64,000 bases of DNA from NCBI RefSeq assembly GCF_009193155.1, contig NZ_VUKD01000001.1, forward strand, positions 806,001 through 870,000. The letters are read 5' to 3'. Position numbers and translations under genes: made by a program. Source of the DNA: Georgenia subflava (GTDB lineage: Bacteria; Actinomycetota; Actinomycetes; Actinomycetales; Actinomycetaceae). The notes below the pieces were generated by a model. It ran no database searches. It was not told where the DNA came from and saw only the letters and a program-made list of their open reading frames with translations. How positions within the stretch are numbered: the first letter of the stretch is position 1; each line of letters opens with the position of its first letter. This document shows positions 31,592-45,857 of the stretch, one piece after another.

Positions 31592-32584
31592 TCATCGATC
31601 GCGCGGACGGAGGCGGACGTTCGGCAGGTCCGGGGCCGGCAGGTCGGGACCGTCGTAGCCGGTGACCCGGCCGAACCGGGCGACACCCTCGGCGTCGCCG
31701 GCGATCGCGGCCTGCCACAGCCGCCGGGCCTCGACGACCTCGTCGTGGGTGCGGCCGACGAAGTTCCACCACATGAGGATCTGCTCGCCGAACGGGGTGC
31801 CACCGAAGAGGACCGCCCGCACCGGGTGCTCGCCGGCGACCAGGACGATCTCCTCCCGACCCGGGGCGAGGTAGGCGAGCCAGGAGGCGGGCACCTCGGT
31901 GCCCGCCGCGGTGAGGTCGCCGTCGTCGACGAGGATCCCGTGCTCGAACGCCGGGTCGACGGGCAGGTGCACGGTGGCGCCGGCGGGGATGTCGACCTGG
32001 GCGGCGACGAGCGGGGAGTAGGCGCGCGCCGGCGAGGTGACCCCGGCAAGGGTGCCCATGAAGACCTGGACGGTGGCGGCGTCGAGCTCGACCGTAGGGA
32101 CCTCGGCGACGTGCTCGAAGTCGCGCTCCCCCTGCCGGTCGGCGTCCGGCATGGCGGTCCACAGCTGCACCCCGGCGATCCGTCCCTGTCCGGGGAACCT
32201 CTTGAGGGTGCCTTCCTCGGAGTGGCAGATCCCGTGCCCCGCCGTCATGAGGTTGAGCTGTCCGGGCTCGATCGTCTGCACCGAGCCGAGCGCGTCCTGG
32301 TGCAGGACCTTGCCCTCGAACAGCCAGGTCACCGTCTGCAGCCCGGTGTGCGGGTGCGGGGCCACGTCCATCCCGCCGGTGACCGAGATGTCGTCCGGGC
32401 CGTAGTGGTCGGCGAAGCAGAACGGGCCGATGAGCGAACGGGCTCTCGTGGGGAGCGTGCGACGCACCGTCATCGCCCTCGGGCCGCCGAGCGGGACCTC
32501 GCGTGGCTCGACCAGCTCGACGGCGGACGTGCCGGGGCCGGTGGTGCACACGTGCTCCTGCGGCCGGGTCTCGAGGTTCGTCAT
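31592..32584 (-). CDS. Pirin-family bicupin protein
   Basis: 330 residues from ATG 32584. The N-terminal cupin has HPHTGLQTVTWLFEGKVLHQD and GHGICHSEE, the three-histidine-one-glutamate iron site of pirin. The second cupin follows (VYSPLV-type region then WWNFVGRTHDEVVEARRLW). Bacterial pirins include quercetin 2,3-dioxygenases and redox-sensing cofactors. It is 75 bases downstream of the aromatic-type operon and on the same strand, so it may be its last member, though the pirin reaction here is unknown. Confidence 0.85.
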   Translation of the reverse strand: MTNLETRPQEHVCTTGPGTSAVELVEPREVPLGGPRAMTVRRTLPTRARSLIGPFCFADHYGPDDISVTGGMDVAPHPHTGLQTVTWLFEGKVLHQDALGSVQTIEPGQLNLMTAGHGICHSEEGTLKRFPGQGRIAGVQLWTAMPDADRQGERDFEHVAEVPTVELDAATVQVFMGTLAGVTSPARAYSPLVAAQVDIPAGATVHLPVDPAFEHGILVDDGDLTAAGTEVPASWLAYLAPGREEIVLVAGEHPVRAVLFGGTPFGEQILMWWNFVGRTHDEVVEARRLWQAAIAGDAEGVARFGRVTGYDGPDLPAPDLPNVRLRPRDR

Positions 32585-32659: not shown

Positions 32660-33598
32660 TCACTCGCCGAGGAACACGGCAGCATTGCTGGAGGCCGCAC
32701 GGGAAACAGCAGCAGCGCCGCGGTGACCGAGCAGACCGAGCGGATCGTCCGTCCCCATCGGGAAGGGCCAATCGCTCCCGACGAGGAGGTGTTCCTCACC
32801 GACGATCTCAGCCGCGAGATCGACGACCCGGGGATCGTGGGCAAGGCAGTCAACCCAGAGCCGAGCCGCCTCCCTCCGCAGATCCGCTCCTTCACGCCCG
32901 ACTCCGGGCCGGCGGGCGTCCACACCACGTTGGTAGCGCCCAAGCACCGCAGGCAGCACGCCCCCGCAGTGGACCAGGGCGATTCGGAGCTCGGGATAAC
33001 GGTCGAGCACACCGCCGAGGAGCAGCTCGGCAGCGGCCAACCCCGACTCGACCGGGTTACCCAGCAGATTACCGAGGTAGAACTGCGTCAGGCGCTGGTC
33101 CGGGGAGGCGCCTGGATGCAGCACGACGGGCGCATCGAGGTCGACGATGCGGCGCCATACCTGATCCAGGCGCCGGTCGGCCAGGCTGACAGACCCTCCG
33201 CCGGCCGCGGCGGTGAAGCCTGCACACCCTGCCCCCACTCGGTCGATCTCCGCGAGGGCGAGCTCGGGATGCTCGAAGGGCAGGTAGACCAGTGGAACCA
33301 GGGCTGGATGACTCTCGGTGGAGGCGGCGAGAGCGTCGTTCACTGCCGGGACCCAGCGCGCGGCATCGGCGAATTCCAGACCCTGCCGGTAGAGCGGTGG
33401 CGGGATCGACACAAGGGCGCGCTCCAGTCCAACGCGCTCCAGCCATGCGACCAGGCTGGCCGGCTCGTAGATCTCCTCCGGACCGATGACATGATCCCCC
33501 ACCGCCACCCGCCCGCCGACGTCCCGCAGCCCGGAAGCAGCGAGGACGTCGGCGGGGAGCACCGGGATCAGGTGGGTGTGGATGTCCGTCGCGGTCAT
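32660..33598 (-). CDS. Amidohydrolase-family 2 protein (ACMSD-like)
   Basis: 312 residues. TDIHTHLIP gives metal ligands His7 and His9. VVLHPGAS and LVHCGG supply later histidines, and LLVGSDWPFPMGTDDP has the conserved aspartate. Known members decarboxylate or hydrolyse ring-cleavage products such as aminocarboxymuconate semialdehyde. The start overlaps the FAH stop by 4 bp; it is the last coupled gene of the operon. It resembles the amidohydrolase at 2732, which belongs to a different regulon. Confidence 0.83.
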   Translation of the reverse strand: MTATDIHTHLIPVLPADVLAASGLRDVGGRVAVGDHVIGPEEIYEPASLVAWLERVGLERALVSIPPPLYRQGLEFADAARWVPAVNDALAASTESHPALVPLVYLPFEHPELALAEIDRVGAGCAGFTAAAGGGSVSLADRRLDQVWRRIVDLDAPVVLHPGASPDQRLTQFYLGNLLGNPVESGLAAAELLLGGVLDRYPELRIALVHCGGVLPAVLGRYQRGVDARRPGVGREGADLRREAARLWVDCLAHDPRVVDLAAEIVGEEHLLVGSDWPFPMGTDDPLGLLGHRGAAAVSRAASSNAAVFLGE

Positions 33599-34488
33599 CC
33601 CACCACCACGTACTCGGACAGCGAGGACGCGGTCACGGTGTTGCGCAGCTCGCCCAGACCCTCGACACGTGTGACGAGTACGTCTCCACCGTTCATGAAG
33701 ACCTGCGGCTCACGGGCGTTACCGATGCCGCTCGGCGTCCCGGTCAGGATGACGTCTCCCGGCAGCAGGGTCATGCCCCAGCTCAGCTCGGCGATGATCT
33801 GCTCAACGGCGAACGCCATCTGGCGCGTGCTCGCTGACTGCAGCTCCCTACCGTTGAGCTCGAGCGTGATGCGCAGGTCGGCGACGTCCACCTCGTCGGG
33901 CGTGGTGAGCCACGGACCGAGCGGCATTGTCGAGTCGAGACTCTTGCCCTTGAGCCACTGACCGCCGTGGGCCCGCTGGAGGTCACGTTGAGAGACGTCG
34001 TTGGCCACCAGCACTGCGCCGACGTGATCCATCGCCCGCTCAGGGGGAATTGACCGCCCGCCTCGACCGATCACGACGGCGACCTCCGCCTCGTAGTCCC
34101 ACTTCCCGGAGACCTGCGGGTCCCAGGCGATCGGGTCGTGTGGTCCGGTGGCGCTGAGTGGGCCCTTGGTGAAGAAGGTCGGATGCGCCGGCCGTTCGAC
34201 GGGATCCTGCCCCTCGCGCTTGCCCTTCGACTCCTCGAAGTGATCCCAGTAGTTCCACCCGGTGCACAAGATGTCACGGTTGAAGCGGGTCAGCGGTACG
34301 AGCAGATCAAGCTCGTCGATCGGCAGCCGCTCAGAGCTGCCTGCCGCAGAGGCGGCGGCCTCCCGGGCCGCCGCCTCGCGAACGATGTCGTCGGGGGTGG
34401 GGGCGCCCGCCGGAAGCACGAGCGCCTCCTCCCCCTCGATCAGGAACGTGCGCCGTTCTCCGCCGTGACGGGTAGCTCCGTAGCGCAT
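33595..34488 (-). CDS. Fumarylacetoacetate hydrolase (FAH) family protein
   Basis: 297 residues. CTGWNYWDHFEES, the metal-site DYEAEVAVVIG (Glu-x-Glu), VGAVLVANDVSQRDLQ, GKSLDSTMPLGPWL and the terminal VILTGTPSGIG are classical FAH-domain motifs. Family enzymes hydrolyse or decarboxylate acylpyruvates and related beta-diketo acids from ring cleavage (fumarylpyruvate, 5-carboxymethyl-2-hydroxymuconate and others). The stop overlaps the amidohydrolase start. Exact substrate unknown. Confidence 0.88.
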   Translation of the reverse strand: MRYGATRHGGERRTFLIEGEEALVLPAGAPTPDDIVREAAAREAAASAAGSSERLPIDELDLLVPLTRFNRDILCTGWNYWDHFEESKGKREGQDPVERPAHPTFFTKGPLSATGPHDPIAWDPQVSGKWDYEAEVAVVIGRGGRSIPPERAMDHVGAVLVANDVSQRDLQRAHGGQWLKGKSLDSTMPLGPWLTTPDEVDVADLRITLELNGRELQSASTRQMAFAVEQIIAELSWGMTLLPGDVILTGTPSGIGNAREPQVFMNGGDVLVTRVEGLGELRNTVTASSLSEYVVVG

Positions 34489-34892
34489 CAGGACGCCTGG
34501 GGCAGAACGGCGATGGCGTTGATCTCGATGAGGTAGTCCTTGTTCACGAACTTCGAGACCTCAACCATCGTCGAGGCAGGTGCGACGCCGGTGAAGTACT
34601 GGGTACGCACGGCGTGGATAGCCTTGAAGTCCTCCATGTTCCGGACGTAGACGTCCACCCGGACGATGTCGTCCATCGTGCCACCCGCAGCCTCGACGGC
34701 GCCCTGCAGGTTCTGGCACACCTGGTGGGTCTGCGCGGAGACGTCTCCGACGCCTGTGACTCCGCCGGTGGCGTTGCGGGCGGTCATCCCGGAGATGAAG
34801 ACCATCGTGCCCTCGGCCTTGATCGCCGTCGCCTGGGAGAAGTGCCCGTTCGGGACGGCCAGCTTCTCGCTACGAACCTCTGTCTTGCTCAA
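34488..34892 (-). CDS. RidA/YjgF-family protein lacking the catalytic-type arginine
   Basis: 134 residues from a TTG start at 34892, preceded by AAAGGAAAG. VFISGMTARNATGG, CQNLQGAVEAAGGTMDDIVRVDVYV and the end PASTMVEVSKF are RidA-fold landmarks. The arginine that binds the carboxylate in RidA enamine deaminases (consensus PARST) is replaced here: the stretch reads Pro105-Ala-Ser107-Thr. It belongs to a subgroup unlikely to hydrolyse simple 2-aminoacrylate. In such operons RidA proteins can act as 2-aminomuconate-type deaminases or tautomerases. Stop and downstream start share a base (TGATG). Confidence 0.85.
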   Translation of the reverse strand: MSKTEVRSEKLAVPNGHFSQATAIKAEGTMVFISGMTARNATGGVTGVGDVSAQTHQVCQNLQGAVEAAGGTMDDIVRVDVYVRNMEDFKAIHAVRTQYFTGVAPASTMVEVSKFVNKDYLIEINAIAVLPQAS

Positions 34893-34957
34893 GGTGTCTT
34901 TCCTTTCAGTACCCCGTCGGGGTCGTCGGTGCCCGTAAGTGGGCGTCGGTGTTGCCC

Positions 34958-35506
34958 TCAGCGGGCGTCGGCCGGGTCTGTGTACCAGCTCGGCTGGGTC
35001 GGGTAGTGCGGGCCGTCGTAGACCTCGAGCAGCACGGTCTCCTCCTCGGCGAGGGTCGGTCCGTGCATGCTCCCCCGTGGGTTCCAGTAGAAGGATCCCG
35101 GGGTGAGGGTGAAGTCGGTCGGCACATAGGTGTACTTGCCGGACAGGCAGAACATGAACTGGTTCGAGGCATGGGAGTGTCGGCTGGGGATGCCTGAGCC
35201 CTTCTCAAATCTCACCAGCGTGATCGAGGCGCCGGTGTCCTCGTTGCGCCACAGCGTCTTGTGGCTCAGGCCGGCGAGAGTCTTGTCGACCCACTCCAGG
35301 TCACCCGTGTGCACAAGTACTTCACGGAAGCGGAAGGAGGCTTCACCGTCAAGGACTGGGCCGGCCTGCTCACGGGAACGGTCGGGGGCCTCTCCCTCGT
35401 ACCGGGCGGGCTCGGAGAGGTTCTCGGCCCACTCGTGTGCGTCGACGGCCTCCGGTCTGGGCGGCGTCGGGACGAGCGGGAGCGCGGATACGCCCGTGTC
35501 GGTCAT
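34958..35506 (-). CDS. Single-domain cupin (ChrR/DAD-like dioxygenase fold)
   Basis: 182 residues. The cupin core has ITLVRFEKGSGIPSRHSHASNQFMFCLSGKYTYV with the first histidine pair, PGSFYWNPRGSMHGPT, and ETVLLEVYDGPHYPTQPSWY near the end. The layout resembles 2,4-dihydroxyacetophenone dioxygenase-like cupins, a non-haem iron family, but I cannot confirm that. ATG 35506 overlaps the second cupin stop, with GAAGGAG inside that gene. It may cleave the ring hydroxylated by the flavoprotein encoded upstream. Confidence 0.7.
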   Translation of the reverse strand: MTDTGVSALPLVPTPPRPEAVDAHEWAENLSEPARYEGEAPDRSREQAGPVLDGEASFRFREVLVHTGDLEWVDKTLAGLSHKTLWRNEDTGASITLVRFEKGSGIPSRHSHASNQFMFCLSGKYTYVPTDFTLTPGSFYWNPRGSMHGPTLAEEETVLLEVYDGPHYPTQPSWYTDPADAR

Positions 35507-36198
35507 GAGATCTCCTTCGAGGTGGTGCTGCCGTGGTGAGCCAGGTAGTCCAGTGCGACGATGAAGTAGGTTCGGTCGCCGTCGGTGTCGTTGACGAGCT
35601 CTCGTGCCCCGCCCTCGTGGAAGCTGACCGAAGCGGCCAGGGCCTCTCCCTCGAGCTCGGCGTCGAGCTCGGCAAGGACGTGCGGCGAGTCGTCGAGCTC
35701 AAGGGTGCGTTGAGTCCCGGCCGGAACGAGCAACGTCCACACCCTGACGTACTCGGTGCCGATGACCGGGACGCGGCCGTCGTCCGGTACCGGCAGGTCC
35801 GGAGCGTCCCCGGCGACACTGCGAGCACCTGGCCCTACGTCCAGGACTCCCGCCTCCCGGGTCTCGCCGAGGTCCTTCAGCTCGATGAGTCGGTTGCGGT
35901 AACGGGTTCCGCCAGTGTTCGTGAGCCGGTGGATCGGCGAGACAGGACGGAATACGACGCCACCGGGGTACTCGGAGACGTGGCGCGGTTCGCTGCCGTC
36001 GAGCCAGTCCATCCGCCCGGAGGATCCGGCGACCGACAGCACGACGTACGGATTGTGGTGCTGGTGCCACGGATGAGTGCCGCCCGCAGGCAGAACGACG
36101 TCCCACACCCGCACCGGCCCGTTGTCGAAGATCACGCTTGTCCCGACGCCGACGAGGGTGATCTCGGTACCGTCCGGAGCGGTGACGACATGGTTCAT
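35503..36198 (-). CDS. Bicupin protein of unknown substrate
   Basis: 231 residues. The N-terminal cupin has VWDVVLPAGGTHPWHQHHNPYVVLSVAGSSGRM, a strong metal motif HxHH, and a conserved PVSPIHRLTNTG with the third histidine. The C-terminal cupin (VWTLLVPAGTQRTLELDDSPHVLAELDAELE) has lost most histidines and probably only supports the fold. ATG 36198 overlaps the hydroxylase stop, with GGAGG upstream. It could be a second oxygenase or an isomerase of the ring-cleavage product. Confidence 0.72.
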   Translation of the reverse strand: MNHVVTAPDGTEITLVGVGTSVIFDNGPVRVWDVVLPAGGTHPWHQHHNPYVVLSVAGSSGRMDWLDGSEPRHVSEYPGGVVFRPVSPIHRLTNTGGTRYRNRLIELKDLGETREAGVLDVGPGARSVAGDAPDLPVPDDGRVPVIGTEYVRVWTLLVPAGTQRTLELDDSPHVLAELDAELEGEALAASVSFHEGGARELVNDTDGDRTYFIVALDYLAHHGSTTSKEIS

Positions 36199-37835
36199 GA
36201 GTGGACCTCCTGAAGTCGCTGAGATTCGCTGGTAGTGGCCTGGCTGCCCGGGTGGACGATCCGGTCGTAGATCTGCTCAGCCACGTCGGAGCCGCTGCTC
36301 CAGGCCGCGATCGCGGCGATGTGGGCGTCCGGTCGGAGGAGGACGACGGTGCCCTCTCCCACGCCCAGGCGCTTGCGCAGCCGGTCGCCCGGATCGAAAC
36401 ATGCCCGGTCCCGGAGCCCAGAGTCGTGCGGCGCATCCCACCGGCTGACCAGCAGGTGAGTCAGGCCGGGTGTGCCCCCGACGGGTAGCGTGGGTCGGCG
36501 CCGGGCGTCGGCGAAATGGAGGGCGACGAAGCTGTCACCCGCGAGCCGGTGCAGGTGCGTCTCATCGCCGTCGATCCCGTAGACGGCCACGTCCGGCATC
36601 CGGTCGCCCACGCGCACGGCCTGGGGCTCACCTTCCTTGACCATCGACCAGTCACCCGTGCCGTCCACGTCGAGCGAGACGCCGAGGAGCGACCGGGTCA
36701 TTGCCCAGCCCCAGCCCGAAGTGCTCTCCCGCTCAGCACCGTCGGCGCCACCCATGGCGAGCCTGGCGTTCTCGGCCATCTGCCCCGAGCCCTTGATCGC
36801 CACGCTCGACTGCTCGGCCTCATAGCCACCCAGCAGGGCCGGGTCCGCCCATCCGCGCAACACCCAGGCGAGGCGCCAGGGCAGGTTCGAGGCGTCCAGC
36901 ACGCCGGTGTTGAGGCCGAGCGCCCACATGGGGGTGATGAGGTGCGCCGCATCACCCATGAGGAAGACACGGCCCTCGCTCCACCGGTTCGCGACGCGCT
37001 GGTGCACGGTGTACACGTTTGTACCGAGCACCTCGACGTCGTCGACATCGCCGATGAATCGCAGTGCCTTGTCCCGGAGCTCCTCGGGCCCCGGCTCGAC
37101 CGCGCCGGGCGCCAGCGGGAAGAGGAATCGCCAGCAGTGCGGTTGACGCACCAGGATCATCCATTCCTCAGGGTCGGCGAAGTAGGCGAGGTAGGGGTAG
37201 TCGCGCGGGTTGTCGACGTCGAGGTCGACCTTCAGGTCGACAAGCATGTACCGGTCCTCGAGCGTCTTGCCCTCGACCGTGATGCCGAGACCCTCGCGGA
37301 TGCTCGACCGGCCGCCGTCGCAAGCCAGGACGTACCTGGCGTCGAGTTCGCGGGTCCCGTGCTCGTCGGTCACGGTGAGGGTGACCCGGTCGGGGTGCTG
37401 GACCAGCCCGGTAACCCTGGTCCGTAGCCGCAGCGCCTGCGGGTCCCTGTCGCGCAGAACCTCTTCGAGTACGCGTTCGAGACTGTTCTGAGGGATGTTG
37501 AGCACGAACGGGTACCTGGTTTCGCCGGCAAGGACGTCCATCTTCACGCTAGGTGCGGCGGTGTTCGTGGCTCGGTTCACCTCGCCGATCTCGTCCATTC
37601 GCAGAGCGGCGCGCAGCACCGGCACGGCGGCGCCATAGCGGTCAAGAACCTCGATGGTGCGGGTGAGGACCGTGCCGGCCTTCGTGTCCAGCGAGAGCTG
37701 GTCGTCCTCTTCGAGGACGGTGACCGGCACGCCGTAGTGCTTCAGGCCGAGCGCGGTGATCAGGCCGATCGGTCCCGCACCGACGACAACCACGGGCAGG
37801 GTGTCGTCGACCGGTGCAGCAAGGGTGGGCGTCAT
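36195..37835 (-). CDS. FAD-dependent aromatic hydroxylase (MhpA/TfdB-like)
   Basis: 546 residues from ATG 37835, with AAGGAG about 9 nt upstream (the GTG three codons earlier has no spacing). VVVVGAGPIGLITALGL is the FAD GxGxxG site, YVLACDGGRSSIRE the DG motif, and GRVFLMGDAAHLITPMWALGLNTGVLDA the GD motif of group A flavin monooxygenases. A C-terminal thioredoxin-like domain (GDRMPDVAVYG, VLLRPDAHIAAI) is typical of phenol and hydroxyphenylpropionate hydroxylases. It probably ortho-hydroxylates an aromatic acid or N-heterocycle with NAD(P)H, upstream of the cupins. Confidence 0.88.
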   Translation of the reverse strand: MTPTLAAPVDDTLPVVVVGAGPIGLITALGLKHYGVPVTVLEEDDQLSLDTKAGTVLTRTIEVLDRYGAAVPVLRAALRMDEIGEVNRATNTAAPSVKMDVLAGETRYPFVLNIPQNSLERVLEEVLRDRDPQALRLRTRVTGLVQHPDRVTLTVTDEHGTRELDARYVLACDGGRSSIREGLGITVEGKTLEDRYMLVDLKVDLDVDNPRDYPYLAYFADPEEWMILVRQPHCWRFLFPLAPGAVEPGPEELRDKALRFIGDVDDVEVLGTNVYTVHQRVANRWSEGRVFLMGDAAHLITPMWALGLNTGVLDASNLPWRLAWVLRGWADPALLGGYEAEQSSVAIKGSGQMAENARLAMGGADGAERESTSGWGWAMTRSLLGVSLDVDGTGDWSMVKEGEPQAVRVGDRMPDVAVYGIDGDETHLHRLAGDSFVALHFADARRRPTLPVGGTPGLTHLLVSRWDAPHDSGLRDRACFDPGDRLRKRLGVGEGTVVLLRPDAHIAAIAAWSSGSDVAEQIYDRIVHPGSQATTSESQRLQEVHS

Positions 37836-37840
37836 GGATG

Positions 37841-38569
37841 TCACTCCTTCGCGTAGGACCGGTCACGGCTCAACGTCGAGCCGGTCATCGTGGCAGCTTC
37901 CGACAACAGGAAGAGCAGGGGCCCGACCACATCCTCCGGAGTGCCGATCCCGGTGGTGCGGGTCCAGTGCTCGCGTTCGCCCCCGGTGGGGTTCGCGGCC
38001 TGGAACTGCGGCGTGTCGATGACGCCGGGCGCCAGGACGTTGACCCGGACACGGTGCTCGGCGACCTCGGCGGCAAGCGACTTGGCGAACGGGATGAGCG
38101 CGCCCTTGCTCGCCGCATAGGCAGCGGCCCCGGCGCGGCCCATGTGCGCCAGGCCGGAGGTGAACATGACGATCGATCCACCGCGTCGGGCGACCATGGA
38201 CGGCAGCACGGCCTGGCAGGCCCAGACCACGCCGTCGAGGTTGACTCCGAGGACCCTCTGCCACTCGGCCGGGGACATCTCTGACACCGTCGTGCGCGGC
38301 TGGATGGCGGCGCCGGCGACGAGACCGGAGACGTAGCCATGCTCAGTGACAACGTCGGCGACGGCGGCGCGCACAGCCTCACGATCTGCGACGTCGACCG
38401 GGAGCTGGCGCACGCCCGGTGCCCCCTCCAGGTCGCGGGAGTGGGCGACGTCGAGCACCACGGCACTGCCGCCGGAGTCACCCACGGCGCGCGCGAGCGC
38501 GGCACCGATCCCGTTGGCCCCGCCGGTGACGACGACGACCTCGCCGGTGGCGTCGAAGGTGGCCCTCAT
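37841..38569 (-). CDS. Short-chain dehydrogenase/reductase (SDR)
   Basis: 242 residues. VVVVTGGANGIGAALA is the cofactor motif, VAGAAIQP stands for NNAG, and SGLAHMGRAGAAAYAASKGAL holds the Ser-Tyr-Lys catalytic set. The C-terminus ends TGSTLSRDRSYAKE, longer and more charged than usual. The start ATG 38569 overlaps the Ldh-type stop by 4 bp. In this operon it may aromatise a diol or oxidise a side-chain alcohol before hydroxylation. Confidence 0.86.
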   Translation of the reverse strand: MRATFDATGEVVVVTGGANGIGAALARAVGDSGGSAVVLDVAHSRDLEGAPGVRQLPVDVADREAVRAAVADVVTEHGYVSGLVAGAAIQPRTTVSEMSPAEWQRVLGVNLDGVVWACQAVLPSMVARRGGSIVMFTSGLAHMGRAGAAAYAASKGALIPFAKSLAAEVAEHRVRVNVLAPGVIDTPQFQAANPTGGEREHWTRTTGIGTPEDVVGPLLFLLSEAATMTGSTLSRDRSYAKE

Positions 38570-39651
38570 CGGACGGCCCCCACGCTGTGCGAGACCGGCG
38601 CGGGCAGGGTCACCCCGACCTCGGCGGCAGCCGCGTGCAGCCCGGCGAGGGTGGTCGGGTCCAGCGCAATGCCATCGACAGCGGTGCGGCGAGCACGTTC
38701 GGCCTCGGGTTGACCGGGGAGCATGATGCGCTCGACCCCGGGACGCGGGCGCGAGCCGAGGACGGCCGCGGCGAGCTGGGCAACCCCAGCGTCGAAACCG
38801 GCGCGGCCGACGAAGTGCTCGACGTCCAGGGCGAGGAAGAAGTGCGAGCAGTCGTTGGGCACCGTCGTGTCCTTGTACAAGGGGGCAACCGCGTCACCGA
38901 ATGCGCCGCCCGAGAGGACACCCGCCAGGATGTCTACGACGAGGGCGAGGCCGAACCCCTTGGCGCCACCGACGGGAAGCAGAAGGCCGGCAAGTGCCGC
39001 AGCAGGGTCCTCGGTCGGCAGCCCGTGCTCGTCCGTCGCCCAGGTGTCAGGGATCGATCTGCCCTCGGCAGCAGCGATACGGATCTTTCCCAGAGCCGCT
39101 TCAGACAGCGCCATGTCGAGTCCGAAGCCCGCTCCTTCACCACCGGGGACAGCGATGGCGAGCGGGTTGTTGCCGACGACCGCCTCGGCGCCGCCATGGG
39201 CGGGCATCAAGGGTCGCGTGTTGGCCATGGCGACGCCGATGCACCCCTGCTCGGCAGCCAGCTCGGCATAGGGAAGCGCCCGGCCGAAGTGAAAGGCGTG
39301 ACGTACCGTGACCGCCCCGACGCCCAGCCGCTTTGCCTTCTCCACGGCGAGCGTCATCGCCTGGGCCCCCGTGAACTGTCCCAACGCGTGAGCGCCATCC
39401 AGAACGGCGGCGGCACCGCCGTCGTCACGCACGACGTCGGCCGTCTCGGCAAGCGTGACCGAGCCGTTCCTCAGGCGCGAGACGTACATCGGGACCAGCA
39501 TGACGCCGTGAGAGGCAACGCCGTGCAGGTCGGCGTCGACGAGGCTGTCCGCGAGCACTCGAGCCTGCCGACTGTTGAGGCCGGCGCCCTCGAACACCGT
39601 CGCGGTCGCGTCAGCCAGCCATTCGGGACGCACTGTCGTTCGTGTGGTCAA
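38566..39651 (-). CDS. Malate/L-lactate/ureidoglycolate-type dehydrogenase (Ldh_2 family)
   Basis: 361 residues from TTG 39651, which has AAGGAA at 7 nt spacing; the GTG at 39633 is an alternative. It shows the Ldh_2 features GVASHGVMLVPMYVSRLRNG, VTVRHAFHFGRALPYAELAAEQGCIGVAMANTRPLMPAHGG, NPLAIAVPGG and LLPVGGAKGFGLALVVDILAGVLSGG. These enzymes use NAD(P) on 2-hydroxy acids or cyclic imines in a fold unrelated to Rossmann dehydrogenases. It is the first gene of the operon; the GntR operator ends 18 bases before the TTG. Confidence 0.87.
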   Translation of the reverse strand: MTTRTTVRPEWLADATATVFEGAGLNSRQARVLADSLVDADLHGVASHGVMLVPMYVSRLRNGSVTLAETADVVRDDGGAAAVLDGAHALGQFTGAQAMTLAVEKAKRLGVGAVTVRHAFHFGRALPYAELAAEQGCIGVAMANTRPLMPAHGGAEAVVGNNPLAIAVPGGEGAGFGLDMALSEAALGKIRIAAAEGRSIPDTWATDEHGLPTEDPAAALAGLLLPVGGAKGFGLALVVDILAGVLSGGAFGDAVAPLYKDTTVPNDCSHFFLALDVEHFVGRAGFDAGVAQLAAAVLGSRPRPGVERIMLPGQPEAERARRTAVDGIALDPTTLAGLHAAAAEVGVTLPAPVSHSVGAVR

Positions 39652-39748: not shown

Positions 39749-40435
39749 TCAGGACGTCATGGCGTGACGCATGCGTTCCATCGCACCATTCAGATGGCGC
39801 ATCATCGCCTCGGCAGCGGCTTCGGGATCGTGCTCCACGCAGGCTCGGAGAATCTCGCTGTGCTCGGCGTGGCTGCGCTCCTGTGCATCGCGATCCCGCG
39901 GCGCGGCGAAGCGATACCGCTCACTGTTCTGCCACACCGGGTCGATCGCACGCAGCAGCCAGCGCGAGCCGGACGCGCGGTAGAGGAGGAAGTGGAACTC
40001 TGTGTGCGCGGCACGGGCGGCATCGATCTCTCGCGCGTCGAGCAGCTCCTCGTGACGGTCCAGCGCGCGACCAGCCTCGGCGGCCTGGCCGGAGGTGAAC
40101 CGCCGGGCTGCTGCTGCAACAACGATCGGCTCAAGGGCCAGACGCGTCGCGTACGTGTCCTCCAGGTCGGCCACCGACAGCTCGGCCACCCGCGCTCCCC
40201 GGTGCGGGACCACCTCGACGAGACCGAGGGCTCCGAGACGGCGCAGGGCCTCACGGACCGGCATGGCGCTGGTCTCGTAGTGCTCGGCAATCTCCTGGAT
40301 CCGCAGCCAGGCGCCCGCCTCGAAGTCCCCTCGCAGGATCGCCCGGTGCAGCTCGACAGCCACCCGCTCAGCGAGCGTGCGTTGGATCCCGGTGCCGGCC
40401 TCGGCGAGATCGAAGAGTTGGCTCGACGTGCTCAT
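39749..40435 (-). CDS. GntR-family transcriptional regulator, FCD subfamily
   Basis: 228 residues from ATG 40435, overlapping the permease stop by 4 bp. N-terminal winged helix: RTLAERVAVELHRAILRGDFEAGAWLRIQEIAEHYETSAMPVREALRRLGALGLV. C-terminal FCD domain with ARRFTSG, AHTEFHFLLYRASG and RSHAEHSEIL, which carry the metal-binding histidines. FCD regulators usually sense a carboxylate. It is the last gene of the transporter operon and lies 65 bases from the first operator. It is therefore the obvious regulator of both 15-bp sites. Confidence 0.9.
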   Translation of the reverse strand: MSTSSQLFDLAEAGTGIQRTLAERVAVELHRAILRGDFEAGAWLRIQEIAEHYETSAMPVREALRRLGALGLVEVVPHRGARVAELSVADLEDTYATRLALEPIVVAAAARRFTSGQAAEAGRALDRHEELLDAREIDAARAAHTEFHFLLYRASGSRWLLRAIDPVWQNSERYRFAAPRDRDAQERSHAEHSEILRACVEHDPEAAAEAMMRHLNGAMERMRHAMTS

Positions 40436-41259
40436 CGGTGCTCCTCCGCCCACGGCAGCAACATCTTCTCCAGCCATACAAGCAGGTAGAACAGGATGAT
40501 GCTCATCAGGGCGAGCAGCACGATCGCTGCGAATGCCAGTGCCGTGTCCGCGCTCGCTCCGGACTGCACGATGACGAAACCGAGTCCCGAGGAGGCTCCG
40601 ACAAACTCCGCGATGACCGCACCGATGACAGCCAGCGAGATTGCGTTCTTCAGCCCTACGAAGATCTGGGGCAACGCCCACCAGAAGCGGATCTTGCGGA
40701 ACTCCTGCATCTCCGAGGCGTCGAGCGAGCGAGAGAGCTCAACTAGTTCGGACGGCGTCGAGCGCAGGCCGGAGACCGTCGAGAGGACGATCGGGAAGAA
40801 GCACAGCAGGATCACCATGACGATCTTCGGCGTCTGTCCGAACCCCATCCAGACGACGAGAATCGGGGCGATGGCCACCTTCGGCACCGAGTTCACGGCT
40901 AGCAGCAGCGGGTAGAGCATCCGTTCGACAATCACGAACCGGGAGATGGCCATGGCCACCGGGACCCCGATGACGATAGAGAGGACGAAGCCGATAACGG
41001 TCTCCCCCAGGGTGACCCACGCCTGCTCGAGAAGGTAGGGGCCGAGCTCGACGATGGTGGCAACCACGACGTGGGGGCCGGGCACGAGGTACTCAGGAAT
41101 GCTGAAGAGGACGGTTGCCAGCCACCACAGGGCGACGATGAGGACGACGGCGAGGACCGGTAGGCCCACGGCGGCGATACTGCGGCCACCCCGACGACGC
41201 CCACGTTGCGGCTCCGCGCGGCCAGTGGCCGCACTCCCGGTAGCGGTCACGGCGGTCAT
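40432..41259 (-). CDS. ABC transporter permease (TauC/SsuC/NMT1-type importer)
   Basis: 275 residues. Six membrane helices, with AVNSVPKVAIAPILVVWMGFGQTPKIVMVILLCFFPIVLSTVSGL and the EAA-type cytoplasmic loop ELSRSLDASEMQEFRKIRFWWALPQIF. It has the topology of nitrate/sulfonate/taurine and pyrimidine-precursor importers. It overlaps both neighbours by 4 bp, so it is produced with the ATPase and GntR regulator. The substrate is probably the aromatic or heterocyclic acid degraded by the linked operon. Confidence 0.88.
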   Translation of the reverse strand: MTAVTATGSAATGRAEPQRGRRRGGRSIAAVGLPVLAVVLIVALWWLATVLFSIPEYLVPGPHVVVATIVELGPYLLEQAWVTLGETVIGFVLSIVIGVPVAMAISRFVIVERMLYPLLLAVNSVPKVAIAPILVVWMGFGQTPKIVMVILLCFFPIVLSTVSGLRSTPSELVELSRSLDASEMQEFRKIRFWWALPQIFVGLKNAISLAVIGAVIAEFVGASSGLGFVIVQSGASADTALAFAAIVLLALMSIILFYLLVWLEKMLLPWAEEHR

Positions 41260-42026
41260 GCTGCGACTCCTTCACTCTCGGGCATGAGGAGGTCGTGCAG
41301 CCGGGCACTGACCTTCGTGACCTCGTCGGCGTGAGCCGTCTGACCAAGGGAGCGCGGACGCGGGATGTCCACCTCCACGATCTCGCGCAGCCGGCCCGGT
41401 CGGGGGCTGAGGACCACCACCCGGTCGGCAAGGAGAACAGCCTCGTCGATGGAGTGCGTGACGAAGACGATCGTGGTGCTCTCCTCGGCGACGATGCGCT
41501 GCAGCTCGACGGAGAGCTCTTCACGGGTGAGGGCGTCCAGAGCGGAGAACGGTTCGTCCATCAGGAGCACTTGTGGCTGCTGGATGAGTGAGCGGCACAG
41601 GGACACCCTCTGCTGCATACCCCCGGAGAGCTCGTGCGGGAGCTTGTCCTCGAACCCCTTGAGGCCCGCGAGCTCGACGAGATCGTGTGCGCGAGCCCGA
41701 TGCGTGCGCCGGTCCAGCTTCAAGACTTCCACCGGCAGCATGATGTTCTCGACGACGCTGCGCCACGGCAGGAGGGCCGGTCGCTGGAACATCACGCTCA
41801 CGTCCCGTCGGGGCGACGTCACGGGTTCGCCCCCCACCATCACCGTCCCCGCCGTGGGGGTGATGAGTCCGGAGATCACCCGCAGGAGGGTGGACTTTCC
41901 GCAGCCCGAACGCCCCACGAGAGTGACGAACTCGTTGGTGCCAACCTCGAGATTGATGTTCTCCAACGCATGGACCGTGCCCGACTTCGTCTCGAACACC
42001 TGGGAGACCTGGTCGATAGAGATCAC
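41256..42026 (-). CDS. ABC transporter ATP-binding protein (TauB/SsuB-like)
   Basis: 256 residues from GTG 42026, with GAGG about 5 nt upstream. Walker A GRSGCGKST at 38-46, the Q-loop MFQRPALLPWRSVVENI, signature LSGGMQQRVSL, Walker B VLLMDEPFSALD and the His switch VTHSIDEA are all intact. The Q-loop plus PRRDVSVMFQ pattern is typical of importers of nitrate, taurine and sulfonates. It lies 7 bases after the binding-protein gene. Confidence 0.9.
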   Translation of the reverse strand: MISIDQVSQVFETKSGTVHALENINLEVGTNEFVTLVGRSGCGKSTLLRVISGLITPTAGTVMVGGEPVTSPRRDVSVMFQRPALLPWRSVVENIMLPVEVLKLDRRTHRARAHDLVELAGLKGFEDKLPHELSGGMQQRVSLCRSLIQQPQVLLMDEPFSALDALTREELSVELQRIVAEESTTIVFVTHSIDEAVLLADRVVVLSPRPGRLREIVEVDIPRPRSLGQTAHADEVTKVSARLHDLLMPESEGVAA

Positions 42027-42033
42027 GGCTACC

Positions 42034-43077
42034 TCACTCCCCAGGTGCGAGGTCGAAGTCGACAACATCGGCCGGGGCGATCTCGGTCTCCAGCGCCGGA
42101 GCCATGATGTCGATGACGGACTGGACGCGGGCTTGGTCGATCGCTCCGATGTCTGTGCCATCGACGTCGACATATGGCGCCATCAGTTCGACCTCGGTGG
42201 CGGCGACGTCGGCGTCCTGAGTTGGCTGGTACTTCTTGAGGATCTCGCCAGTCTCTTCGGGGTTCTCGATGGAGTACTCGAGGCCCTTCAACAGCGCCTC
42301 GGTGAATCGGCTGACGAGCTCGGGGTCAGAGCCGGCAAGCTCCTCGGAGGTGACGAGAACGTTGCCGTACAGCTCCGGCAGGACGTCACCGTAGGGAAGG
42401 ACGACCACGTCCTTGCCCGACGCGGCGGCGGCAATGAGCGGCTCACCGACTACGAACTGACCGATTCCGTCTACCTGACCACTGACCAAGAGCTGAGGCA
42501 GCGCTGGAGGTGCCGCCGGGACGAACTCGACGGTCGCAGGGTCGAGCCCGGCGGCAGCGGCGTAGGTCGGGAAGATGACCTCGTTCGTCGAGCCCGGCTG
42601 GTCACCGATCTGCTTGCCCTCGAGATCTGTGGGTTCGGCGATGCCCCTGTCGCCGAGGGTGACGATCGCGGCGAGTGACTTCTGGTGGATGACACCGACG
42701 GTGGTGACGGGCAGGTCCTCGTTGGCGACCGTGACGACCACCGTGGAGAAGTCGCCTGTGCCGAAGTCGGCGCTGCCCGAGGCGACAAGCTTCATGACGT
42801 CGACCGTGCCAGATCCCGGCTGGATCGTGACGTCGATACCTGCCTCCTCGAAATAGCCCTTCTCCGAGGCGACGTAGACGTATGCGTCCCGCCCGAAGGT
42901 ATTGAAGGAGGTGAGGTAGGTGACCTCGTCGGTCTCGGACCGCGACGTTGAGGACGTGCCGTCAGTAGCGCCCCCGGAAGCTTCGTCGGTCTGTCCAGAG
43001 GTCGCGCTGCACGCAGCGAGGGCGAAGATGCCCGCGAGGGCCGCGGTGGTGTTCAGCGCACGTCGTCGTGTGTTCAT
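42034..43077 (-). CDS. NMT1/THI5-like substrate-binding lipoprotein
   Basis: 347 residues from ATG 43077. The signal peptide ends in the lipobox LAAC with Cys23. The mature part starts with a Ser/Thr/Gly-rich tether and has VTYLTSFNTFGRDAYVYVASEKGYFEEAGIDVTIQPGSGTVDVMKLVASGSADFGTGDF, the NMT1 ligand-binding pattern. LPQLLVSGQVDGIGQFVVGEP is the second lobe. It delivers ligand to the permease/ATPase pair. The ligand is not readable, but linkage to hydroxylase genes favours an aromatic or pyrimidine-like compound. Confidence 0.88.
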   Translation of the reverse strand: MNTRRRALNTTAALAGIFALAACSATSGQTDEASGGATDGTSSTSRSETDEVTYLTSFNTFGRDAYVYVASEKGYFEEAGIDVTIQPGSGTVDVMKLVASGSADFGTGDFSTVVVTVANEDLPVTTVGVIHQKSLAAIVTLGDRGIAEPTDLEGKQIGDQPGSTNEVIFPTYAAAAGLDPATVEFVPAAPPALPQLLVSGQVDGIGQFVVGEPLIAAAASGKDVVVLPYGDVLPELYGNVLVTSEELAGSDPELVSRFTEALLKGLEYSIENPEETGEILKKYQPTQDADVAATEVELMAPYVDVDGTDIGAIDQARVQSVIDIMAPALETEIAPADVVDFDLAPGE

Positions 43078-43246
43078 GGTTGTCCTGTCGCTCGGTACTC
43101 GGCGGACGGTCCTCGTCCACCCCTGAGTAGGAGACCGTGGCCCGCTGTCGTCAGGCTCGTACGGGTTCCCTGTCATCGTTGGCAAGTAGTCGCTTGTGGC
43201 GATGGACGACATGGTGTGACCGCCCACACATCATCTTTAGGCATAT

Positions 43247-43514: not shown

Positions 43515-45068
43515 ATGACGGTGCAGTTCGTCAGCGCCACGGAGGCGGCAGCCCAGGTGCCCGACGGCGGGACGGTGGCGCTGGCCGCGAACGGCGGCGG
43601 GATGCTCGAGCCGACGGCGGTGATCGCGGCGGTCGAGGAGCGGTTCGTCCAGACCGCCTCACCGCAGAACCTCACGCTCATCCACGCGCTCGGCGTCGGC
43701 GACCGAGGCTCCCGCGGCGTCAACGGCTTCGCCCACGAGGGGATGGTCAGGAAGGTCGTCGGCGGCCACTGGACCTGGTCGCCGACGATGATGGGCCTGG
43801 CCGCCGAGAACAAGATCGCCGCCTACGTCATGCCGGCCGGCGTCATCACCCACCTGTACCGCGAGTCCGGCGCCCGCCGCCCCGGGTACATCACCCGCAC
43901 CGGCCTCCACACCTTCGCTGACCCGCGCCAGAAGGGCTGCCGCGCCAACGCCGCCGCCACGGAGGACCTCGTCGAGGTGCTCGAGCTCGACGGCGCGGAC
44001 TACCTGCGCTACAAGCCGTTCCACGTCGACGTCGCGCTGGTGCGCGGCACCGAGGTCGACGAGCGCGGCAACATCGCCGCGGACTCCGAGCCGGCGGTCC
44101 TCGACGCCCTCGAGGCCGCGCAGGCCGCCCGCGGGTCCGGCGGGATCGTCATCGTCCAGGTCAAGCGCAAGGTCGCCGGCCAGCTCGACCCCCGCCGGGT
44201 CCTCATCCCGGCCGCCCTCGTCGACTACGTCGTCGTCGCGCCCGAGCAGACCCAGACCTACCTCACCGAGGAGGACCCCGAGCTCTTCGCGCCGGTCGCC
44301 CCCGAGGCGCTCGTCGGACCCTCCGGGGTGAGCGACCCGATCCGCGCGATCGTGGCCCGCCGCGCCGCACTGGAGGTCAACGCCGGCGACGTCCTCAACC
44401 TCGGGTTCGGGATGAGCGCCGACGTCGGCAACATCCTGCGCGAGCAGGGTCGCCTGAGCAGCGTCCAGCTCGCCGTCGAGCAGGGCCTCTACGACGGCGT
44501 CCCCGAGCTCGGCGACCTGTTCGGCATGTCCACCGGTCCCTCGGCCCGGGTGAGCTCCGCCGTGCAGTTCGACATCTTCTCCGGCGGTCTCATCGACGTC
44601 ACGTGCCTGGGCATGGCGCAGGCCGACCGGCACGGCAACATCAACGTCTCGGCGTTCGGCGGCAAGGTCATGGGTCCGGGCGGGTTCGTGGACATCAGCT
44701 CCAACGCCCGCACCGCCGTCTTCTGCGGCGCCTTCCGTGCGAAGGGGCTCAAGGTCCATCTCGAGGACGGCCGGCTGGTCATCGACTCCGAGGGGCAGAT
44801 CGCCAAGTTCGTCCCCGACGTCGAGGAGATCACCTACTCCGGGCCGTTCGCCGCCCGGGAGGGCCGCCGTGCCCTGTACGTCACCGAGCGGTGCGTCTTC
44901 GAGCTGACCGAGGAGGGCCTCGAGCTCATCGAGGTCGCCCCCGGGATCGACGTCGAGCGCGACGTCCTCGACCTGCTCGACTTCCGCCCGATCGTCCGGG
45001 ACGTCCGCCTCATGCCCGCCGAGGTGTTCGCGCCGCTGACCACCGACCTGCAGCCCGTCGGCCGATAG
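43515..45068 (+). CDS. Fused-subunit family I CoA-transferase (second paralogue)
   Basis: 517 residues with an AGGAGG ribosome site. ANGGGMLEPTAVI is the N-terminal glycine loop, and LAVEQGLYDGVPELG the catalytic glutamate region of the second half; NLGFGMSADVGNI and KFVPDVEEITYSG match the protein at 4767 closely. Both should transfer CoA to a carboxylic acid of the pathway. The conserved [21 protein letters not shown] segment is shared almost word for word with the first copy. It begins a four-gene operon. Confidence 0.87.
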   Translation: MTVQFVSATEAAAQVPDGGTVALAANGGGMLEPTAVIAAVEERFVQTASPQNLTLIHALGVGDRGSRGVNGFAHEGMVRKVVGGHWTWSPTMMGLAAENKIAAYVMPAGVITHLYRESGARRPGYITRTGLHTFADPRQKGCRANAAATEDLVEVLELDGADYLRYKPFHVDVALVRGTEVDERGNIAADSEPAVLDALEAAQAARGSGGIVIVQVKRKVAGQLDPRRVLIPAALVDYVVVAPEQTQTYLTEEDPELFAPVAPEALVGPSGVSDPIRAIVARRAALEVNAGDVLNLGFGMSADVGNILREQGRLSSVQLAVEQGLYDGVPELGDLFGMSTGPSARVSSAVQFDIFSGGLIDVTCLGMAQADRHGNINVSAFGGKVMGPGGFVDISSNARTAVFCGAFRAKGLKVHLEDGRLVIDSEGQIAKFVPDVEEITYSGPFAAREGRRALYVTERCVFELTEEGLELIEVAPGIDVERDVLDLLDFRPIVRDVRLMPAEVFAPLTTDLQPVGR

Positions 45069-45077
45069 GAGATCCCC

Positions 45078-45857
45078 ATGATTGCCCAGCACGACGACCA
45101 CGTCGTCATCACGTTCGACCGCCCGCACAAGCGCAACTCGATGGACCTCGCCGCGTGGACCTCGCTGCGCGAGGGGGTCGAGGCCGCGTCGGGGAACCCC
45201 GCGAACCGGGCGATCGTCCTGCGTGGGGACGCCCGCTCCTTCTGCGCCGGGAACGACATCGACTCGATGGCAGCGCTGGACGGCGAGCAGGACGCGAAGG
45301 ACTACTTCGTGACCGGCATGCTGCCGACCTTCCGGGCGATCGCCGAGTCGCCGCTGCCCGTGATCGCCGTCGTCGAGGGCTCGGCCCTGGGCGGCGGGGT
45401 CGAGCTCGTCACGTGGAGCGACATCGTCATCGCCGGCTCGAACGCCACGTTCGGCCTGCCCGAGGCGAGGATCGGGGTGTGGGCGACCGTGTACTTCGGC
45501 GCCATGCCGTACGCCTCCGCCCGCCGGCTCGGCGCCCGACTCGCCCTCGCCGGTGACAGCCTCGGCCACACCGAGGCCAAGGACCTCGGCCTCGCGACCT
45601 ACGCGGTCGACGCCGGTGCCGTCGAGGAGACCCTCGGTCGCGTGCTCGACGGCGTCCGGGCCGGGGCTCCCGACGCCGTCGCCCGGTCCAAGCGGTGGCT
45701 CAACCGCGAGCTGCTCGACCTCGGCGTCCGCGACTCCGAGGCGGCCCTGAACGAGCTGGCCGAGCACACCCTGCAGGGGCCGGAATTCGCCGGGCGGATG
45801 GCCGACTTCGCCGCGGCGAAGGCCGCGCGGGCCGCCGCGAAGGCGACTGTCCGATGA
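45078..45857 (+). CDS. Enoyl-CoA hydratase/isomerase (crotonase) family protein
   Basis: 259 residues, 9 bases after the CoA-transferase. FCAGNDIDSM and EGSALGGGVELVTWSDIVIAG are the oxyanion-hole motifs, and both acidic residues (GGGVELV and LPEARIG) are kept. The region after it, GVWATVYFGAMPYASARRLGARLALAG, replaces the usual PGxGGTQRL, so this branch may be an isomerase, hydrolase or ring-cleaving crotonase rather than a plain hydratase. It overlaps the SDR start (ATGA). Confidence 0.85.
   Translation: MIAQHDDHVVITFDRPHKRNSMDLAAWTSLREGVEAASGNPANRAIVLRGDARSFCAGNDIDSMAALDGEQDAKDYFVTGMLPTFRAIAESPLPVIAVVEGSALGGGVELVTWSDIVIAGSNATFGLPEARIGVWATVYFGAMPYASARRLGARLALAGDSLGHTEAKDLGLATYAVDAGAVEETLGRVLDGVRAGAPDAVARSKRWLNRELLDLGVRDSEAALNELAEHTLQGPEFAGRMADFAAAKAARAAAKATVR

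Follow-up and report, generated by a model that had tools for sequence, protein, structure and literature searches.

We describe an operon of eight genes in a 64,000-nucleotide stretch of the Georgenia subflava contig NZ_VUKD01000001.1 (hereafter the window). It is a recurring gene set of soil bacteria and probably serves to degrade a nitrogen-containing, anthranilate-type ring compound. In order of transcription, the genes encode an Ldh-family oxidoreductase, an SDR protein, a class A flavin monooxygenase, two different cupins (cupA and cupB), a RidA-like protein, an FAH-superfamily hydrolase and an ACMSD-related amidohydrolase. The more specific function that we favor is catabolic, i.e., the import of an anthranilate (2-aminobenzoate)-type amino-aromatic acid and its breakdown without activation by coenzyme A (CoA). 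This assignment is tentative: it has a good chance of being correct, and a slightly greater one of needing revision.

The preliminary description of this DNA had listed the same eight genes, and all eight frames are indeed present where it placed them, in the same order on the minus strand (39651-32660; Table 1). It had also counted seven of eight junctions as lying within a few bases. The tight packing holds, but eight genes have seven junctions, and six of these are tight, in that the frames overlap or are at most 5 nt apart. Overlaps of 4 nt occur at the Ldh/SDR, monooxygenase/cupA, cupA/cupB and FAH/amidohydrolase junctions, and one of 1 nt at RidA/FAH. The SDR/monooxygenase junction is a 4-nt overlap if the monooxygenase begins at its GTG start and a 5-nt gap if it begins at ATG, and a 65-nt gap separates cupB from RidA. 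Seven of the eight proteins belong to a Pfam family; the exception is cupA, which matches nothing in Pfam or NCBIfam. None of the eight reaches an NCBIfam cut-off (for the SDR protein and the monooxygenase, among the best 25 families listed).

We defined the core of the operon as the Ldh, SDR, flavin monooxygenase, cupB, RidA and FAH genes. This core occurs together in 24 loci, from several actinobacterial lineages and one Agrobacterium plasmid (the window, L002, L003, L004/L069, L006, L007, L008, L015, L061, L062, L064-L068, L071, L100, L101 and L117-L122). Genes in these relatives were called by a simple codon-usage script, and several of their names rest on similarity to our query set or on prior knowledge. 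L004 and L069, which have the same gene order, were taken as one contig and counted once, and L003 was judged by tblastn only. Left out of the 24 are L005, L014, L063, L105 and the clusters L016-L018, L070, L098, L099, L102-L104 and L108. No SDR or class A monooxygenase was found at L014. At Kineosporia L005, the monooxygenase and cupA are present, with only a RidA-family gene of 28% identity nearby.

All eight families are present at 17 of the 24 core loci, including the Agrobacterium tumefaciens plasmid (L015), where a Rieske dioxygenase set lies alongside. The amidohydrolase is missing in the stretch read at L007 and L121, and that for L100, L117, L119 and L122 was found at L106, L123, L124 and L125. 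The cupA gene is about half length in L008, L015 and L071 and is missing at L061 and L064-L067. The latter five loci have a common order, namely ABC importer, Ldh, RidA, FAH, GntR, SDR, monooxygenase, cupB and amidohydrolase.

Because these genes keep together across lineages, their grouping exceeds what would be expected by chance. Their distance matrices also correlate: among 28 gene pairs, r ranges from 0.66 to 0.95 (11-16 loci per pair), and for each pair none of 2000 label permutations was as high, although host kinship, which was not removed, contributes to these values. By cupA, the nearest named loci are those of Georgenia (80-81%), and synteny of the whole set of 12 genes extends to G. 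thermotolerans (L002) and G. ruanii (L003), where the proteins are 70-93% identical.

The operon is also patchy, because in a survey of 396 genomes of the phylum cupA and cupB were each seen in two, i.e., the window genome (4.3 Mb) and one other. Within the genus, the monooxygenase has a match at E <= 1e-120 in 5 of 9 genomes (its own included), and it has none in 50 other relatives. In the order of Kribbella sandramycini, cupB has a match in 41 of 293 genomes, 38 of which are large genomes with 62-74% identity; in the family of Crossiella L006, the count is 7 of 268 genomes. A second Georgenia copy (L068, L069) is a mosaic, with cupB and RidA 82-85% like those of the window and the monooxygenase, SDR and FAH at 63-66%, and this split suggests recombination between copies.

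Our main argument for an anthranilate-type substrate is that unrelated routes to this one product join the same core in relatives. The co-occurrence of such front ends with the core is observed directly, as are gene content and conservation, and it is the class of substrate that we infer. Kynureninase produces anthranilate, and quinaldine 4-oxidase is a molybdenum enzyme. The first front end (T) is found at 4 of the 24 loci (L006, L007, L120 and L121), and consists of a class-V pyridoxal-phosphate (PLP) kynureninase-like enzyme (PF00266), an amino-acid permease and a PrnB-family haem enzyme (PF08933). In L006 and L007, the PLP enzyme scores above the cut-off of Pfam's KYNU_C. The second (I) is found at 6 of the 24 (L100, L117, L119, L122, L004/L069 and L068), and consists of a StyA-like oxygenase, a flavin reductase and a CoxL-like molybdenum hydroxylase, with a StyA-reductase fusion in L004/L069 and L068. 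Its flavin-reductase domain was confirmed with Pfam in L004, L100 and L119 and was read from similarity at the other three loci, while the oxygenase domain was checked with Pfam in L100.

Four of the loci with front end I (L100, L117, L119 and L122) additionally have an SDR protein and an AraC regulator with PF14525 and PF12833, which makes them resemble the iif/ind indole operon. There, IifB is an SDR protein, IifC a StyA-like oxygenase, IifD a flavin reductase and IifR a regulator with the same two domains (PMC4577076; here and below, published work is represented by passages of the cited papers), and the operon converts indole to anthranilate (PMC6221969). Anthranilate is described as a key metabolite in the breakdown of tryptophan, indole and quinaldine (PMC4539516), and the quinaldine route includes quinaldine 4-oxidase (PMC3534580).

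As a control for front end T, we searched 268 genomes of one family for PrnB-like genes, which occur in 15 of them (16 matches). Four matches reach at least 72%, and three of these adjoin the core (the query's own locus, G976 and G1060). Among the 12 weaker matches, none of the five that were read is near a core.

Under the favored reading, the ABC importer would take up the acid and the flavin monooxygenase would hydroxylate its ring, perhaps at the C5 position (para to the amine). Ring opening would be aided by cupA, cupB or both, and the RidA-like protein would convert an enamine to a ketone, with the nitrogen lost as ammonia. The FAH protein would split an acylpyruvate into pyruvate and a short acid, the ACMSD-like enzyme would remove CO2 or hydrolyze an intermediate, Ldh and SDR would balance keto and hydroxy intermediates, and the GntR protein would provide regulation. 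In this scheme, the site of hydroxylation, the sequence of reactions and the roles of both cupins, Ldh, SDR and the amidohydrolase are guesses.

It is important to consider several observations that weigh against this reading. No front-end enzyme is present among the ten window neighbors scanned, and the window genome has no orthologous kynureninase-like gene (the best match is partial, at 30%). The substrate assignment therefore depends on the neighborhoods of other species. In L120 and L121 the PLP enzyme is below the Pfam cut-off for KYNU_C, and the L006 enzyme is about equally close in PDB to a cysteine desulfurase (3.3e-19) and to kynureninase (3.9e-19). One of the closest PrnB matches (G935, locus L142, 72%) has neither the core nor a kynureninase-like gene beside it. 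We noticed no IifA-like gene (dienelactone-hydrolase type) in front end I, where no profile search for IifA was made, and a plain anthranilate route does not account for the CrtO-like and LLM genes that some loci contain. In addition, neither cupin is clearly recognizable as the ring-cleaving enzyme, because cupA is absent from the five Kribbella-type loci read and relatives of cupB are also found in clusters that encode a VOC-family protein of its own (L016-L018, L098 and L099). Finally, according to the passages on the quinaldine degrader Rue61a, this organism apparently uses only a CoA-thioester route for anthranilate, and did not grow on 3- or 5-hydroxyanthranilate (PMC3534580).

CoxL-like molybdenum-hydroxylase genes lie near the core at 8 of the 24 loci (L002, L004/L069, L068, L100, L101, L117/L123, L119/L124 and L122/L125), and could instead mean that the core handles an N-heteroaromatic acid of the hydroxypyridine, pyrimidine or quinoline type. 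The monooxygenase would then open the ring and cupB would act later, as a hydratase or tautomerase. This fits the alignment of cupB with the tautomerase KdgF, as well as the importer's binding protein, whose second-best match in PDB is a formyl-aminopyrimidine-binding protein (8.3e-21, after an unnamed binding protein at 1.9e-22). Moreover, at some loci that lack both cupA and a VOC gene, no alternative enzyme for ring opening is evident. However, a front end with kynureninase-like and PrnB-like enzymes indicates carbocyclic amines, and no CoxL-like gene was called in the roughly 20-kb stretches at the four loci with front end T or among the ten window neighbors. We consider the N-heteroaromatic explanation unlikely, but worth keeping in view.

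A related parallel is the lum cluster of Nocardioides simplex, whose N-heteroaromatic route uses a small 16-kDa cupin, LumY, as a dienedioate hydratase, together with an FAH-family protein, LumV (PMC12746152). LumY is likened to cupB by description and not by sequence, and the ring chemistry of the lum route is performed by P450, Rieske and extradiol enzymes. Since the gene sets differ, we rejected the lumichrome route as a model for the operon, and the cupin and FAH parallels alone remain. A cupB relative was matched in 26 of 294 genomes of the G662 family, and no lum cluster was recognizable in the regions read, which were fetched from nine genomes; the rest are mostly matches of 30-41% over short stretches.

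The individual enzymes bear on two further explanations. The monooxygenase belongs to the class A flavin aromatic hydroxylases by its FAD_binding_3 domain, and its best matches in PDB are PnpA (5.6e-42) and RebC (1.4e-35). The preliminary description had called the gene set an oxygenase operon, a label that is secure for this enzyme only, as the cupins remain putative oxygenases.

In cupA, H45, H47 and H90 are invariant in 11 of 11 aligned sequences. Its profile matches the structure 9u8n (5.8e-19), which the fold search identified as AzcA and on which we found no paper in the PMC full text. In the predicted structure of cupA (pLDDT 88.8), the N-terminal half closely resembles AzcA, a triazine-forming cupin, with a TM-score by target of 0.88-0.93 over about 90 residues at 31% identity. 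Salicylate 1,2-dioxygenase reached a TM-score below 0.5 at most against this model. The fold search used the cupA model only, and the AlphaFold model of cupB (pLDDT 55) was not used.

In cupB, all 16 aligned sequences have H110, H112 and H148, and 15 of them have Q116. Its profile matches ChrR best (5.8e-9), followed by KdgF (4.5e-7), where glutamine aligns with glutamine, and there are weak matches to quercetinase, 2,4'-dihydroxyacetophenone dioxygenase and an acetylacetone-cleaving enzyme. Searched as a single sequence, cupB has its best match in dihydroxyacetophenone dioxygenase (2.9e-5). Given these matches, cupB may be a dioxygenase or a hydratase/tautomerase. The partial sets at Kineosporia L005 (monooxygenase and cupA) and at L063 (cupB, RidA and FAH) suggest a role for cupA close to the hydroxylation step and for cupB late in the route.

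The best PDB matches of the amidohydrolase are ACMSD chains (about 1e-27), and H7, H9, H161, H210, D276 and R230, presumed to be metal ligands and one arginine, are invariant in 13 of 13 sequences. This similarity would fit a variant of the 3-hydroxyanthranilate route, in which 3-hydroxyanthranilate would be formed by the monooxygenase and cleaved by a cupin, with decarboxylation by the ACMSD-like enzyme, deamination by RidA and a final step by FAH. Such routes, e.g., for anthranilate in Geobacillus and for 2-nitrobenzoate (nba), share with the operon a flavin hydroxylase, a cupin, an ACMSD-family enzyme, a RidA-family deaminase and an FAH-superfamily enzyme, and the RidA and FAH families suit the later steps. 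However, 3-hydroxyanthranilate dioxygenase (3-HAO) is a cupin with a 2-His-1-Glu iron site, whereas cupB has the pattern HxH...Q...H and cupA the three histidines given above, and neither has a 3-HAO family match in Pfam or NCBIfam. In addition, the first substrate arginine of ACMSD is apparently not kept in the amidohydrolase. No aldehyde dehydrogenase, as expected for 2-aminomuconate semialdehyde, and no aldolase or acylating dehydrogenase is found among the eight genes or the ten neighbors scanned (four of them the importer and regulator genes; unlinked genes were not searched). The operon also differs in its extra Ldh, SDR and second cupin. Judged on the genes scanned, the 3-hydroxyanthranilate route fails on the aldehyde dehydrogenase and the cupin site, and we find a variant of it improbable. 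For the same reasons, and because the RidA-like protein lacks the usual arginine, the comparison with 2-aminomuconate routes that had been drawn in the preliminary description is weak.

Instead of the PAR motif, the RidA-like protein has PAS, PAC or PAM in all 17 aligned sequences. The arginine of PAR, an active-site residue of RidA imine deaminases of the Rid1 type, is thus present in none of the 17; PAR is found in all three PDB relatives printed. This loss would suit a nitrogen-free pathway for a phenolic acid, similar to those of gentisate or homogentisate, in which the RidA-like protein would assist but catalyze no step itself. A flavin hydroxylase, a cupin and an FAH protein are also the make-up of a gentisate-type pathway. 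However, a RidA-family gene occurs with cupB at all 24 core loci and at L014, L016, L017, L018, L063, L098 and L099, and this recurrence makes it unlikely that the protein is a bystander. Furthermore, both front ends act on nitrogen compounds. We therefore regard a nitrogen-free pathway as the least probable of the explanations discussed here. The gentisate route itself fails on its bicupin, gentisate 1,2-dioxygenase, in that neither cupin has a gentisate-dioxygenase family match in Pfam or NCBIfam (operon genes were searched, and unlinked genes were not). A flavonoid (fde) route was rejected, as no context supports it.

The FAH protein, probably an acylpyruvate hydrolase, belongs to the fold family of such enzymes. 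Among NCBIfam models it comes nearest to 2,4-didehydro-3-deoxy-L-rhamnonate hydrolase, although its 182 bits fall well short of the cut-off of 500; this resemblance agrees with the splitting of a 2,4-dioxo acid. Ldh is below the cut-off of all five NCBIfam models that it matched.

Returning to the anthranilate-type reading, a described pathway with the operon's gene set was not found in the PMC full text, which leaves subscription journals and bioRxiv outside coverage, nor was a paper there that combines an indole-3-acetic acid route with a cupin, RidA and FAH. This agrees with the earlier statement that no pathway could be named. Four aerobic routes for anthranilate are described, one of which proceeds via 5-hydroxyanthranilate and gentisate in Nocardia opaca (Cain 1968, per PMC4539516). 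This branch is also actinobacterial. It requires a 5-hydroxylase, loss of the nitrogen, cleavage of the ring and hydrolysis of an acylpyruvate, each of which is plausible for the operon. It differs in the gentisate step, given the cupins' lack of a family match, and the branch is known without genes (none as of 2018, according to the passages of PMC6221969), so that the likeness is one of description.

The mab cluster for 3-aminobenzoate in Comamonas QT12 contains a monooxygenase, a ring-cleaving dioxygenase, a proposed deaminase (orf7) and a hydrolase (orf9), and its route splits fumarylpyruvate into fumarate and pyruvate (PMC9584955). These functions parallel those of the operon by description, not by sequence, and the passages of that paper name no Ldh, SDR or amidohydrolase for mab. 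With the 2-aminobenzoyl-CoA route the operon shares the destination of anthranilate, and distant relatives of cupB, RidA and FAH lie beside genes that we take to be of this route in L070, L103 and L104. However, the operon has no CoA ligase or 2-aminobenzoyl-CoA monooxygenase. The likeness to the iif/ind operon applies to relatives, as the front end adjoins the core there and not among the scanned neighbors in the window.

The unit extends beyond the eight genes, because the importer and the GntR regulator travel with the operon in its nearest relatives. Four genes precede the operon on the same strand, and the frames of the regulator, likely a local one, and the permease overlap by 4 nt. All are syntenic with the operon in G. 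thermotolerans and G. ruanii, where the ATPase is 87%, the permease 86% and the GntR protein 78-79% identical. An NMT1-type importer partners the core in the window, L002, L003, L062 and the five Kribbella-type loci (L061 and L064-L067), with the binding protein syntenic in these relatives, and one lies near L068 (at L109).

Table 1. Genes of the operon and of the preceding importer and regulator, with positions in the window
Feature	Position	Strand	Basis
Ldh_2-family NAD(P)-dependent oxidoreductase (2-oxo/2-hydroxy acid type)	38566..39651	-	Pfam PF02615 2.4e-111
SDR dehydrogenase/reductase (adh_short)	37841..38569	-	Pfam PF00106 4.6e-48
Class A flavin monooxygenase (FAD_binding_3)	36195..37835, alternative GTG start 37844	-	Pfam PF01494 2e-66
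cupA, cupin with a second cupin-like half	35503..36198	-	Alignment, profile and fold matches
cupB, small cupin (Cupin_7)	34958..35506	-	Pfam PF12973 1.5e-15
RidA-like protein (Ribonuc_L-PSP), Ser replacing the PAR arginine	34488..34892	-	Pfam PF01042 1.8e-27
FAH-superfamily hydrolase (FAA_hydrolase), probable acylpyruvate hydrolase	33595..34488	-	Pfam PF01557 2.4e-64
Amidohydro_2 metal enzyme, ACMSD-related	32660..33598	-	Pfam PF04909 1.6e-21
ABC importer substrate-binding protein, NMT1/THI5 type	42034..43227, open frame	-	Pfam PF09084 4.4e-48
ABC importer ATPase	41256..42173, open frame, start probably near 42050	-	Pfam PF00005 2.5e-34
ABC importer permease	40432..41259	-	Pfam PF00528 2.3e-29
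GntR/FCD transcriptional regulator, likely local	39749..40435	-	Pfam PF00392 and PF07729

Two other neighbors are of note. CoA-transferase and enoyl-CoA hydratase genes (43515-45857, plus strand) are divergent from the importer. A Pirin-family gene (31592-32584, minus strand) adjoins the amidohydrolase downstream; it probably lies outside the unit, because its query has no match at 1e-10 in L002-L008.

Several related clusters were seen alongside. L016 and L017 (Streptomyces plasmids) and L098 and L099 (G662 family) form a second conserved cluster, with an HpaB-type oxygenase, VOC and RraA-like proteins, a cupB relative, an aldehyde dehydrogenase, RidA, an NCS1 permease, a flavin reductase and FAH. 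This is possibly another amino-aromatic route, in which cupB would serve as a hydratase. L070 and L102-L104 have a distant cupB and a protein that we take to resemble 2-aminobenzoyl-CoA monooxygenase/reductase, with a Cyclase-family protein (PF04199) in L102 and an LLM oxygenase, RidA and FAH in the other three; these clusters look like indole breakdown. In L018, a cupB relative, RidA and FAH accompany two molybdenum hydroxylases together with a VOC gene, and in L063 they occur with an apparent short-chain fatty-acid type transporter; a class A monooxygenase was noticed in neither.

Overall, the earlier interpretation is partly supported. Its suggestion of a nitrogen-containing aromatic substrate is backed by the kynureninase-like, PrnB-like, StyA-like and molybdenum-hydroxylase genes of the relatives. 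A more ambitious hypothesis, which we think is probably not correct as a whole, is that the operon encodes a CoA-free route for anthranilate in actinobacteria via 5-hydroxyanthranilate (or a fifth aerobic route). It would be a common sink for tryptophan, through PrnB-type haem and kynureninase-like enzymes, and for indole, with the two cupins and the arginine-less RidA as a new module for ring opening and deamination. If it is true, genes would be available for an anthranilate route that was reported in 1968 and was still without genes in the passages of a 2018 review (PMC6221969). A reusable cupB-RidA-FAH module would also be defined; these three families are also found alongside at least two further sets of hydroxylases (the L016/L098 type and L018), and once without a hydroxylase noticed adjoining (L063). 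Finally, PrnB-like haem enzymes are known from pyrrolnitrin synthesis, and a catabolic role would be hinted at for some of them.

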